Position numbers and translations under genes: made by a program. 64,000 nucleotides of DNA from Pelagibacteraceae bacterium. GTDB lineage: Bacteria; Pseudomonadota; Alphaproteobacteria; Pelagibacterales; Pelagibacteraceae. Within the stretch, counting starts at the first letter, position 1, and each line of letters starts with the position of its first letter. Shown piece by piece: positions 39,133 to 62,083 of this stretch. Location: the NCBI GenBank assembly GCA_009693705.1, contig SHWS01000004.1, positions 1 through 64,000 of the forward strand. Direction: 5' to 3'. The notes under the pieces are model-generated. The model worked only from the letters and a program-made list of their open reading frames with translations, had not been told where the DNA came from and searched no databases.

Positions 39133-39603
39133 ATGTCAACATTTGTATACATGACTAGATGCGATGGATGTGGTCATTGTGTGGATATTTGTCCATCAGA
39201 TATTATGCACATTGATGAAAATATTAGACGAGCAGTAAATATTGAACCTAATTTTTGTTGGGAATGTTATTCATGCGTTAAAGCGTGTCCAAACCATGCA
39301 ATTGATGTTAGAGGTTATGCTGATTTTGCTCCAATGGGGCATAGTGTTAGAGTTAGAAGAGAAGAAGAAAAGGGAACAATTTCATGGAAAATAAAATTTA
39401 GAAATGGAACGGAGAAAAACTTTGTTTCACCCATTACAACAAAACCTTGGGGTAAATTTATTCCTAAACTTTCAGAATTACCTAAGCCAAATGAAGGTGA
39501 GATAAACTCTCAAACATTATACTCAGAGCCGCAAGGTTTAAATATTAATGGTGAATTACCCTCAATACCTAAAGAGTCTTTTAAAAAAGGAGTTTATTAT
39601 TAA
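39133..39603 (+). CDS. aprB: adenylylsulfate reductase beta subunit
   Basis: This 156-residue ferredoxin-like subunit carries two 4Fe-4S clusters: cysteines 10, 13, 16 and 20 (CDGCGHCVDIC) and 42, 45, 48 and 52 (CWECYSCVKAC). It transfers electrons between AprA's FAD and AprM. A clear Shine-Dalgarno AAGGAG (39115-39120) precedes it. Its stop shares a base with the aprA start (TAATG). Confidence 0.95.
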   Translation: MSTFVYMTRCDGCGHCVDICPSDIMHIDENIRRAVNIEPNFCWECYSCVKACPNHAIDVRGYADFAPMGHSVRVRREEEKGTISWKIKFRNGTEKNFVSPITTKPWGKFIPKLSELPKPNEGEINSQTLYSEPQGLNINGELPSIPKESFKKGVYY

Positions 39604-41462
39604 TGGCAAAACATAAAACTCATTACGAGGATTGTGATATTTTGATTGTTGGTGGGGGTATGGCAGGAAGTGGTGCTACTTTTGAAGCTAGACACTGGGG
39701 TAGAGATATGAAAATTGTTTGCGTTGAAAAAGCTAACATTGATAGAAGTGGAGCAGTTGCCCAAGGTCTTTATGCCATTAATTGTTACATGGGAATGCAG
39801 TGGGGTGAAAATCAACCTGAAGACCACGTAAGGTATGCTCGTAACGATTTGATGGGTTTAGTTAGGGAAGATTTAGGATTCGATATGGCTAGACATGTAG
39901 ATTCCACAGTTCACATGTTTGATGAGTGGGGCTTGCCAATGATGAAAAATGAAAAAACCGGCAGATACTTAAGAGAAGGCAAATGGCAAATCATGATTCA
40001 CGGTGAAAGTTACAAACCGATAGTTGCTGAGGCAGCAAAAAAATCTGCAGATAAAATTTATAATAGAATAATGGTTACTCATCTACTAATGGATGAGGCT
40101 CAAGAAAATAGAGTGGCTGGTGCGGTTGGTTTTAATATGCGTACTGGTGATTTTTATGTGTTTAAAGCTAAAGCAGTAATAGTTGCTGCTGGTGGAGCAT
40201 CACATATCTTTAAACCAAGAGCTGTTGGAGAAGGTATGGGCAGAACTTGGTATGCACCTTGGAGCAATGGTTCAGCTTATGCATTACCGATAGCTGTTGG
40301 AGCTAAAATGACTCAAATGGAAAATAGAATTGTATTATGTAGATTTAAAGATGGCTATGGTCCTGTTGGTGCTTATTTTCTGCATCTTAAAACTTACACA
40401 CAAAATGCTAATGGAGAAAACTACGAAAAAAAATGGTATAATCAAACAAAAGAATTAGTGGGTGAATATATTGATCACCACCCAACTCCTACTTGTTTAA
40501 GAAATCATGCATTTATTCAAGAAACAATGGCTGGTGGAGGCCCTATTCACATGGTTACTGTTGAAGCTTTTCAGGATCCACATTTAGAAACGATAGGATG
40601 GGAAAACTTTTTAGGAATGACGGTAGGCCAAGCTGTAGTTTGGGCTTCCCAAAATATTGATCCAAAATATACTAATCCAGAATTAACTACATCTGAGCCT
40701 TATGTTATGGGTAGTCACGCGACCTGTTCTGGTGCTTGGGTTTCAGGACCTGAAGATTTATCTCCCCCAGAATATTTCTGGGGCTATAATAGAATGTTGA
40801 CTGTAGATGGTTTATTTGGCGCTGGGGATACAGTTGGCGGAAGTGCTCATAAATTTTCATCAGGCTCTTTTACTGAAGGTAGATTAGCTGCAAAAGCTGC
40901 TGTAAAATACGTCCAGGACAAAAAAGCAGAGGGCATTAAAGTTTCTGAAAAACAATGTGAGGATTTTAAGACTAAAGTTTACAAACCTCTAGAAACTTAT
41001 ACGGTTGCGCAAAATGAGATTACAGGTGGTACAGTTTCTCCAAGCTATATATCCCCAATTCAAGGACTACAACGCCTTCAACGAATTATGGATGAATATG
41101 TGGGTGGTATCGCAACTAATTATATGACCAATGCTAATATGCTTAAAAAAGGTTTAGAACTTTTAGCTTGGCTTGAAGAAGATTTGGAAAAAGTTGGAGC
41201 AGAAGATTATCATCAATTAATGAGAGCTTGGGAGCTAAAACACCGAGCTTTAACCTCTCAATGTGTAACAGAACACACTATGTTTAGAGAGGAAACTCGT
41301 TGGCCAGGTTATTACTATAGAGGTGATTATAAAAAACTAGACGATCAAAATTGGCATTGCCTTACTGTTTCTAGAAGAGACCCTAAAACTGGAAAATTTA
41401 CTCTTGAAAAAGTTCCTGTCTACCACATTGTAGATGAAAAAGAGAAAAAAAAAGCTTCCTAA
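39603..41462 (+). CDS. aprA: adenylylsulfate reductase alpha subunit
   Basis: This 619-residue FAD protein opens with DILIVGGGMAGSGATFEARH and the family's EKANIDRSGAVAQGLYAIN. It interconverts APS and sulfite plus AMP. The substrate-site His is in AWVSGPEDLSPPEYFWG-like sequence near the C-third. In this genome, sulfite oxidation is the likely direction given the sulfite-releasing neighbours. A Shine-Dalgarno AAGGAG lies at 39587-39592. Highly conserved throughout, with no truncation. Confidence 0.96.
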   Translation: MAKHKTHYEDCDILIVGGGMAGSGATFEARHWGRDMKIVCVEKANIDRSGAVAQGLYAINCYMGMQWGENQPEDHVRYARNDLMGLVREDLGFDMARHVDSTVHMFDEWGLPMMKNEKTGRYLREGKWQIMIHGESYKPIVAEAAKKSADKIYNRIMVTHLLMDEAQENRVAGAVGFNMRTGDFYVFKAKAVIVAAGGASHIFKPRAVGEGMGRTWYAPWSNGSAYALPIAVGAKMTQMENRIVLCRFKDGYGPVGAYFLHLKTYTQNANGENYEKKWYNQTKELVGEYIDHHPTPTCLRNHAFIQETMAGGGPIHMVTVEAFQDPHLETIGWENFLGMTVGQAVVWASQNIDPKYTNPELTTSEPYVMGSHATCSGAWVSGPEDLSPPEYFWGYNRMLTVDGLFGAGDTVGGSAHKFSSGSFTEGRLAAKAAVKYVQDKKAEGIKVSEKQCEDFKTKVYKPLETYTVAQNEITGGTVSPSYISPIQGLQRLQRIMDEYVGGIATNYMTNANMLKKGLELLAWLEEDLEKVGAEDYHQLMRAWELKHRALTSQCVTEHTMFREETRWPGYYYRGDYKKLDDQNWHCLTVSRRDPKTGKFTLEKVPVYHIVDEKEKKKAS

Positions 41463-58617: not shown

Positions 58618-60081
58618 ATGAAAGTTACAATAGAGAATAAAAAGGGCCTTTATAAAGATCTTAAAGTTTTTATAGAAAAAGAAACGATGAACTCATACAT
58701 GGATGAGAAGTATGAAGAAATAAAAGGAACAGTTGCTTTAAAAGGTTTTAGACCAGGCAAAGTTCCTAAAGAAATTTTAAAAAGACAATTTGGTAAAGCA
58801 ATTTTTGGTGAAGTGCTGGATAAAGTGCTAAAAGATACCACCAACAAAGTGCTTGAAGAGAATAAAATTAAACCAGCTGGCCAACCTAAACTGGATCTTA
58901 AAACTTTTGGTGAGGATAAAGATTTAGAATATGTAATTTCTGTAACAGAACTACCTAAGGTAGAAATAAAATCATTAGATGATATTAAGGTTGATCAATA
59001 TATTGTTAAAATTGATTCAACTGAGACCGATAAGAGAATTAATCAAATTGCAAAAAATCAACCAAATTTTAAAGATGTCACTGCTGAAACTAAAGCTACA
59101 GAAGGAGATTTAGTTATATTCGATTATAAAGCTACTGTAGATAATAAAGATTTTAAAGGCAATGAAGGTAAAAATGTTCAATTAACTTTAGGCACAGATC
59201 TATTTTTAAAAGGATTTGATAAACAATTAATAGGTGCTAAAAAAGATGATGAAAAAATTGTTGATGCAACATTGCCAGAAAATTTTCCTGTAAAAGAGTT
59301 GGCTAATAAAAAAGCTAAATTTACTTGTAAAGTTATAAATATTAAAAATCGAGAAGACGTAATAGTTAATGATGAATTTGCAAAAAATTTAGGAGCAAAA
59401 GATTTAAATGATCTAAAATTTTTAATTTCAAAACAAATAAATGACGAATATAAAAACGCACTCAATCAATTATCTAAAAATAAAATTCTTGCAGAAATTG
59501 AAAAATTTAAAGTAGATGAAATTCCTGAAAATTTAATTGAAGAAGAGGTAAAAATTCTCTCCGAGGGTATGACGGATGATGAGATAAAAAAAGATAAAAT
59601 AAAATTTCAAGAAACTGCAAAAAAAAGAATTAAAGTTGGTTTAATTTTAAATGAATTTGGTGAACAAAATAACATAAAAGTAACAGAACAAGAAATTCAA
59701 GCAGAAATACAAAAACAATTAAGAATGATGCCTGGACAAGAAAAAATGGTAATTGATTTTTATCAAAAAAATCCATCTGCTGTTGCAAGTTTAAGAGGAA
59801 CTGTTTATGAGGAAAAAATTATCGAAAAAATTATAGAAAAAGCTAAAGTTAACAAAAAAGAGATATCTCAAGATCAGGCTGAAAAAATTTTAAAAGAATC
59901 TCATAATCATGATCACAACCATGATCATGACCATAGCCATAATCATGAACATGATAATAAAAAAAATATAGAGGTAGAAAAAAATATTAAGACAACAGCT
60001 CTAACAGAAAAAAAACCATCAGAAAAAACCACAAAAATTAAGTCTTCATCTGATAAAATAAAAAAAGTTAGCAAAAAGTAA
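58618..60081 (+). CDS. tig: trigger factor with a histidine-rich C-terminal tail
   Basis: This 487-residue ribosome-bound chaperone has the ribosome-docking [17 protein letters not shown], a PPIase domain (about 155-245) and the C-terminal arm. After residue 428 an alternating His run (nine His, every second residue, from 429 to 445) is followed by a Lys/Ser/Thr-rich end. Ordinary trigger factors lack this run. It may bind Ni, Zn or Cu. The gene heads the tig-clpP-clpX-lon group typical of proteobacteria. Confidence 0.95.
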
Positions 60082-60113: not shown

Positions 60114-60725
60114 ATGACAGCTAAAATTTACGAACATATGAATAACTTAATCCCTATGGTTGTGGAGCAATCTAGTAGGGGTGAAAGAGCGTATGATATT
60201 TATTCACGACTTTTAAAAGAAAGAATTATTTTTTTAACAGGCCAGATTAATGATAATATTTCATCTTTAGTCACAGCTCAGCTTTTATTTTTAGAAGCTG
60301 AAGATCCAAAAAAAGAAATTTATTTATATATAAATAGTCCTGGCGGCTTAGTTACAGCGGGACTTGGTATTTATGATACTATGCAATATGTCAAACCAGA
60401 CATTTCAACTTTATGCATTGGTCAAGCCGCATCAATGGGTTCATTTTTGCTTGCTGCTGGCGCTAAAGGAAAAAGATTTTCCTTACCGAATTCTAGAATA
60501 ATGGTTCATCAACCTTCAGCGGGTTTTCAAGGACAAGCAACTGATATCGAAATTCACGCAAAAGAAGTTTTAGCTTTAAAAAAAAGACTCAATGAAATTT
60601 ATTCTAAACATACCGGAAAATCTGTTGAGGAAATAAAATCTGCCTTGGAAAGAGATAACTTTATGACAGCAGATGTTGCAAAATTGTTTGGACTTGTAGA
60701 CGAAGTAGTAGAAAAAAGATCTTAG
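60114..60725 (+). CDS. clpP: ATP-dependent Clp protease proteolytic subunit
   Basis: This 203-residue serine protease has the catalytic triad S107 (GQAASMGSF), H132 (MVHQPSAGF) and D181 (ERDNFMTA). It forms a tetradecamer with ClpX or ClpA. The start at 60114 is taken because of the in-frame ATG, and a second ATG at 60138 would remove eight residues. It follows tig with 32 bases between. Confidence 0.96.
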
Positions 60726-60814: not shown

Positions 60815-62083
60815 ATGAACACTACAAATAAAAATATTCTATATTGCTCTTTCTGCGGTAAAAGTCAGCACGAAGTAAGAAAGCTTATAGCTGGTCCAAC
60901 AGTATTTATATGTGATGAGTGTGTTGAATTGTGTATGGATATTATTAAGGAAGAAAGCAAAGATACTTTTATTAAACACCAGGATGGTCTTCCATCTCCA
61001 AAAGAAATTTGTGCAGTATTAGATGACTATGTAATAGGACAAGAGCATGCAAAAAAAGTTTTATCTGTTGCGGTTCATAATCATTACAAAAGATTAAACT
61101 ATGAGAGCAAAACTAGTAAAACAGTTGAACTCTCTAAATCAAACATTCTTTTAGTTGGACCAACTGGTTGTGGTAAAACATTACTAGCTCAAACGCTCGC
61201 TAGAATTTTAGATGTACCATTTACCATGGCTGATGCAACTACATTAACTGAAGCAGGCTATGTTGGTGAAGATGTTGAAAATATAATTTTGAAATTATTA
61301 CAAGCTGCTGATTACAACGTTGAAAAAGCGCAAAGAGGAATTGTTTATATTGATGAAGTGGACAAGATAAGTAGAAAATCTGAAAATCCTTCTATTACCA
61401 GAGATGTTTCTGGAGAGGGTGTTCAACAAGCATTATTAAAAATTATGGAAGGAACTGTTGCGAGTGTGCCACCTCAGGGTGGCAGAAAACATCCTCAACA
61501 AGAATTCCTACAAGTTGATACTACTAATATATTGTTTATATGTGGAGGTGCATTTGCTGGGTTAGAAAAAATCATATCTCAAAGAGACAAAGGGACTTCA
61601 ATTGGCTTTGGAGCAGATGTTAAAAATACACAGGATAAAACCACTGGAGAGTGGATGAAAAGTTTAGAGCCTGAAGATTTACTTAAATATGGCTTAATAC
61701 CAGAATTTATAGGAAGATTGCCAATGATAGCCTCATTAGAAGATTTAGATGAAAAATCTTTAATTAAAATATTGCAGGAACCTAAAAATTCACTTGTTAA
61801 ACAATATCAGGAATTGTTTAAGCTCGATGGTGCAAAACTTACTTTTAAAGAAAATGCTTTAAAAGAAATAGCGTTTAGAGCAATAAAGAAAAAAACAGGC
61901 GCCAGAGGTTTACGATCAATATTAGAAAATATTTTATTAAAAACCATGTACAATTTACCGAGTGAAGAGAATATTGAAGAGGTTATTGTTGACGTTGCCG
62001 CAGCAAAAGGGCAGTCTCAACCTATTATTGTTCATTCAAAAAATGACAATAAATCTAAATCAACTAAGGTATCAGCGGCTTAA
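60815..62083 (+). CDS. clpX: ATP-dependent Clp protease ATP-binding subunit
   Basis: This 422-residue AAA+ unfoldase has an N-terminal zinc domain with C11, C14, C33 and C36. Walker A is GPTGCGKT (115-122) and Walker B is [10 protein letters not shown]. The IGF-type loop that docks on ClpP appears as SIGFGADVK. Its C-terminal tail is short and polar. It is next to clpP, its partner, and ahead of lon. Confidence 0.97.

Follow-up and report, generated by a model that had tools for sequence, protein, structure and literature searches.

Why does the trigger factor of a Pelagibacteraceae bacterium end in a string of regularly spaced histidines, and is this string kept for a use or merely tolerated? 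The tig gene that raises the question lies in the window, by which we mean the whole stretch of 64,000 nucleotides analysed here, and its features are collected in Table 1. A preliminary description of this DNA had reported an (HX)9 run with X mostly Asn or Asp at residues 429–446 of the tig product (59902–59955), past the normal C-terminal domain and before a Lys/Ser-rich end, and direct reading agrees with it exactly: nine His stand at every second position, X is Asp four times, Asn three times, Ser once and Glu once, Trigger_C stops at residue 407 and the Lys/Ser-rich end closes with KKVSKK, as in most Pelagibacter trigger factors. The product thus carries a His-dense C-terminal extension past its folded domains, and there is no Cys in this tail. 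In an AlphaFold2 model built with 21 Pelagibacter rows the last helix spans residues 418–434 and pLDDT is below 50 from residue 433 to 487, so the tail that bears the run is predicted to lack order.

Table 1. Features of the tig region, in positions of the window.
Feature	Position	Strand	Basis
tig, trigger factor, 487 aa, complete ORF	58618..60081	+	TIGR00115 and three Pfam domains
Trigger_N, ribosome-binding domain	58618..59049	+	Pfam PF05697, residues 1–144
FKBP_C, FKBP-type PPIase domain	59089..59328	+	Pfam PF00254, residues 158–237
Trigger_C, chaperone domain	59404..59838	+	Pfam PF05698, residues 263–407
Low-complexity C-terminal tail of the tig product, 61 aa	end of 58618..60081	+	read from sequence
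Alternating His run, (HX)9, residues 429–446	59902..59955	+	read directly
Lys/Ser-rich, predicted disordered end, closing KKVSKK	59956..60078	+	alignment and structure model
clpP, next gene	60114..60725	+	read directly
clpX	60815..62083	+	read directly

The remainder of the protein is ordinary in its N-domain signature, its PPIase domain and its C-domain. The TIGR00115 equivalog score is 334.7 bits (cut-off 180.2), and residues 43–50 read GFRPGKVP, all eight invariant in a 21-row alignment, in keeping with the ribosome-binding signature of trigger factors, GFRxGxxP. The two genes downstream, clpP and clpX, follow tig in the usual order. Elsewhere in the window (39133–41462) two adjoining ORFs resemble AprB and AprA of adenylylsulfate reductase.

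The His run is real, is far beyond chance and is no artefact. When the 1.29 Mb genome was searched for five alternating His codons, the five overlapping matches all fell within the tig run, and the reversed control pattern had no match. For three alternating His codons, the two strands together gave 85 matches and the control gave 26, and 17 of the 20 loci inspected contain no ORF of at least 100 aa with HxHxH; a second genuine His run of the genome is the end of ZnuC (C45:9310–9330). Before its tail, the trigger factor of the window has no His at all, and over all relatives this part of the protein contains 40 His in 60,335 residues, with 402 in 7,417 residues of tail.

That the run might be unique to this strain, a possibility raised in the preliminary description, is excluded by the tails of its relatives. 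We read 145 tails of the genus Pelagibacter, in sets of 30, 80 and 35 (140 distinct tails, near-duplicates included), after exclusion of a repeat of the window's own gene (L001), a gene whose reading frame breaks off (L173, in G011) and genes cut by the end of a contig (G003, G006, the first fragment of G034, and G078). His occurs in 91 of the 145 and a run of at least three His in 70; the longest run comprises 0 His in 54 tails, 1 in 8, 2 in 13, 3 in 17, 4 in 16, 5 in 15, 6 in 15 and 7–10 in 7, and D, N, K, S and E predominate among the spacers of the His runs. The set of 80 is skewed to close relatives because these loci were chosen as the best matches to the window's trigger factor (all are from Pelagibacteraceae, Pelagibacterales or Pelagibacter, with 77–81% trigger factor identity, from which we assign the window to SAR11); in a less biased set of 65 genomes of the genus, 18 have a run of at least three His. 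The trigger factor of one relative, L063, ends early, at 456 aa, with KEKKTSN in place of the usual KKVSKK, owing either to a frameshift or to a sequencing error.

On a core-protein tree of 141 genus rows, in which 69 of the 138 inner branches are unsupported, the state of the His run changes at least 19 times. The run is dispensable, since it is absent from the early branches of this tree, from most of a 29-row clade and from all 20 members read of the next SAR11 family. L159 has the sole run inside an otherwise His-free clade. Farther away, we surveyed top-listed rather than random rows, namely 72 loci of the class outside SAR11 (L180 and L203 coming from the same genome, and one tail running off its contig) and 25 further loci of the phylum. 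A His tail was found in one of the 72, L214, and in none of the 25. L214 belongs to a far alphaproteobacterium; its His/Asp tail exceeds 30 residues and is longer than the window's, its DNA has 67% G+C, and a clpP-like ORF adjoins the His-tailed tig. Judging from L159 and L214, the His tail has apparently been gained more than once on trigger factor. Within SAR11, we somewhat favour an origin of the run in the genus Pelagibacter, as part of the reading of the tail as a metal ligand that is set out below.

Alternating His with acidic spacers bind Zn, Ni, Co and Cu, and trigger factor is abundant in other bacteria. A metal role of the tail is likely, and we incline, without great assurance, to regard the run as a disordered His/Asp metal-binding tail by which trigger factor would buffer cytosolic metal. 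His side chains at every second position, separated by acidic residues or by Asn or Ser, would bind Zn2+, Ni2+, Co2+ or Cu2+ weakly and by more than one mode at a time. The tail would serve as a metal buffer of the cytosol and would hold exchangeable metal near nascent chains. According to a study of 82 His-rich low-complexity regions in bacterial cobalamin-biosynthesis proteins, these contain on average 53% His, 23% Asp and 9% Glu, and His/Asp low-complexity regions accompany metal proteins in bacteria (PMC6821194).

The preliminary description had likened the run to metal-binding tails, and both its spacer composition and three known chaperones, SlyD, HspA and GroEL1, bear out this likeness. 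SlyD, like the trigger factor described here, is a cytosolic chaperone and PPIase of the FKBP type that ends in a tail, which in SlyD is His-rich and metal-binding; it differs by its insert-in-flap domain and by the absence of a ribosome-binding N-domain. The tig product is not itself a SlyD, as it has both Trigger_N and Trigger_C, and a whole-genome search for FKBP_C proteins matched the tig product alone and so revealed no SlyD. Helicobacter pylori HspA is also a general chaperone with a lineage-specific C-terminal His-rich extension, being a GroES whose His/Cys extension is reported to sequester nickel (PMC7840056), but it is a co-chaperonin and its extension contains Cys, whereas the tail described here sits on trigger factor, is Cys-free and is a putative metal ligand. 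Mycobacterium smegmatis GroEL1 shares the His-rich C-terminus and is described as a major contaminant in the purification of His-tagged proteins (PMC3076238), but is a chaperonin. His-rich chaperone tails are therefore known; a trigger factor as their carrier, with a tail that is apparently selected and apparently gained more than once, was met in none of the titles and abstracts listed by our searches of open-access papers.

Which metal might be concerned? The preliminary description had spoken of a cell with few metal genes, and this fits a report that metal uptake is minimised in SAR11 with the exception of zinc; the same study gives znuA as present in 50% of its SAR11 genomes (PMC4771312). 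The genome of the window encodes a ZnuA with a His/Asp loop and a ZnuC that ends in HNHDHDH. ZnuC, the cytosolic ATPase, was detected in 44 of the 45 Pelagibacter loci given, and in each of the 44 it ends in HxHxH (L277, on C45 of the window's genome, and L328–L366). Its neighbour is a divergent ZnuA with 6–33 His in the loop that precedes PHIW; the loop of the window's genome, with 6, is the His-poorest of the 44 counted. The ZnuA loop and the ZnuC tail share HxHDHxH-style runs with trigger factor in the same genomes, but they are transporter parts, and ZnuC hardly varies in its tail, unlike trigger factor. This likeness leads us to name zinc first among the metals that the tail would bind, and nickel or cobalt second; the benefit would be buffering.

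Coupling of the tail to zinc import was rejected, since the tail tracks neither znuA nor the His of the ZnuA loop. A znuA match is present in 14 of the 18 genomes with a trigger factor run and in 34 of the 47 without (p 0.76), absence calls being weak because many of these 65 genomes are 55–90% complete; five supported independent pairs gave no link between run and znuA, and across 44 genomes the number of His in the ZnuA loop is unrelated to the run (rho 0.10, p 0.52). The incomplete genomes G074, G028, G062 and G068 have trigger factor runs, the longest included, and no znuA match. A tie of the tail to any particular metal system has so far found no support, and many relatives are devoid of the tail. 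HupE_UreJ gave a strong match in G023 and a weak one in G062, the only two of the 65 genomes in which it was detected; both have trigger factor runs of 4–5 His, and G023 is the one His gain inside the His-free clade; we nevertheless discarded a coupling to nickel/cobalt import through HupE_UreJ, as two genomes noticed post hoc are too few. The strong HupE_UreJ nickel/cobalt permease (L367, G023:C21:5710–6249) lies beside a GroEL-like ORF. In several Pelagibacter genomes (G031:C13, G054:C1, G022:C2, G067:C3 and others) a CobW-type GTPase is encoded directly beside znuA; the window's genome has no match to the CobW metallochaperone.

The metal reading has to be weighed against explanations in which the His are incidental or serve another purpose. 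The tail could simply tolerate nearly any hydrophilic sequence, so that gains and losses of CATGAT-like hexamers would spread His and Asp without any function. Such drift would agree with the range of run lengths, from 0 to 10 His, with the numerous state changes and whole clades without a run, and with the even residue number of 49 of the 58 EA/DA-type tails that have runs, as dipeptide steps predict; since the lengths of the tails differ mostly in steps of two residues, HX units must be gained and lost whole. The free slippage that the preliminary description had considered therefore stands as far as length is concerned, but not for the codons. Identical neighbouring units have the same codons in 23 of 71 cases (0.32), where 0.37 is expected from codon use, a level that is not above chance and that gives no sign of recent duplication. 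His codons also resist replacement. In 26 nearest disjoint pairs of equal-length tails, His was retained at 199 of 217 positions (0.92, bootstrap 0.88–0.95), compared with 950 of 1301 (0.73) for the other non-Lys tail residues; spacers were retained at 128 of 169 (0.76) and Lys at 920 of 939. At the codon level, the C that begins a His codon was kept in 206 of 217 cases, and a C at a fourfold site in 104 of 296. A cruder, one-way count, with positions set by the His-richer partner and pairs of up to 0.16 divergence, gave retention of H at 110 of 136 (N/S 1.86), with no advantage of H over X (p 0.22 and 0.29). A comparison with single-step expectations is saturated at C sites, and for this reason we rely on the plain retention counts. 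Codon sharing that does not exceed chance, together with the better keeping of His (92% against 73%), argues for selection and not slippage alone, and the near absence of His from the rest of the protein also speaks against drift, which we consider a rather unlikely explanation. The His tail is probably under selection, and we read the constraint as real but soft, His being held while present and the whole feature being losable.

The tail could also serve a purpose other than metal binding. A tail in which His/Asp and Lys stretches tune disorder, contacts with RNA or the ribosome, or the response to salt, as a metal-free modulator of charge, pH or solubility, would account for the predicted disorder, for the common Lys-rich KKVSKK end and for the other polar segments of His-free tails, such as QSQKQQLDQELKDQ; the strict alternation of His and the similar motif on the zinc importer ATPase of the same genomes nevertheless favour metal, and this possibility appears quite unlikely to us. 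It is highly improbable that the tail is a metal-sensing switch, in which metal would dimerise trigger factor or alter its binding to the ribosome and folding help would respond to an excess or a lack of metal. The carrier is indeed a chaperone with an intact ribosome-binding signature, but the variable length and repeated absence of the run suggest a simple, additive role.

We therefore retain, with the measured preference given above, the reading of the run as a metal-binding tail. Spacer composition, recurrence among relatives, retention of His, independent gains, likeness to the ZnuC motif and the failure to find a SlyD are the points that we count for it, and the lack of tracking of znuA, the dispensability of the run and the one-way count without a difference between H and X are those that we count against it. 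A stronger version, to which we give only a slim chance, is that the tail makes trigger factor a ribosome-docked reservoir from which nascent metalloproteins, on emerging from the exit tunnel, would be given zinc (or nickel). If this were true, a single protein would couple folding to metal loading during translation in streamlined ocean bacteria that have no SlyD. If the tail is, more simply, a selected tail of the metal type, it would provide SAR11 with cheap metal buffering on its nascent-chain chaperone. The tail would then allow the supply of metal to proteins in the course of translation to be tested, and the spread of 0–10 His between close relatives would offer a natural series for such tests.
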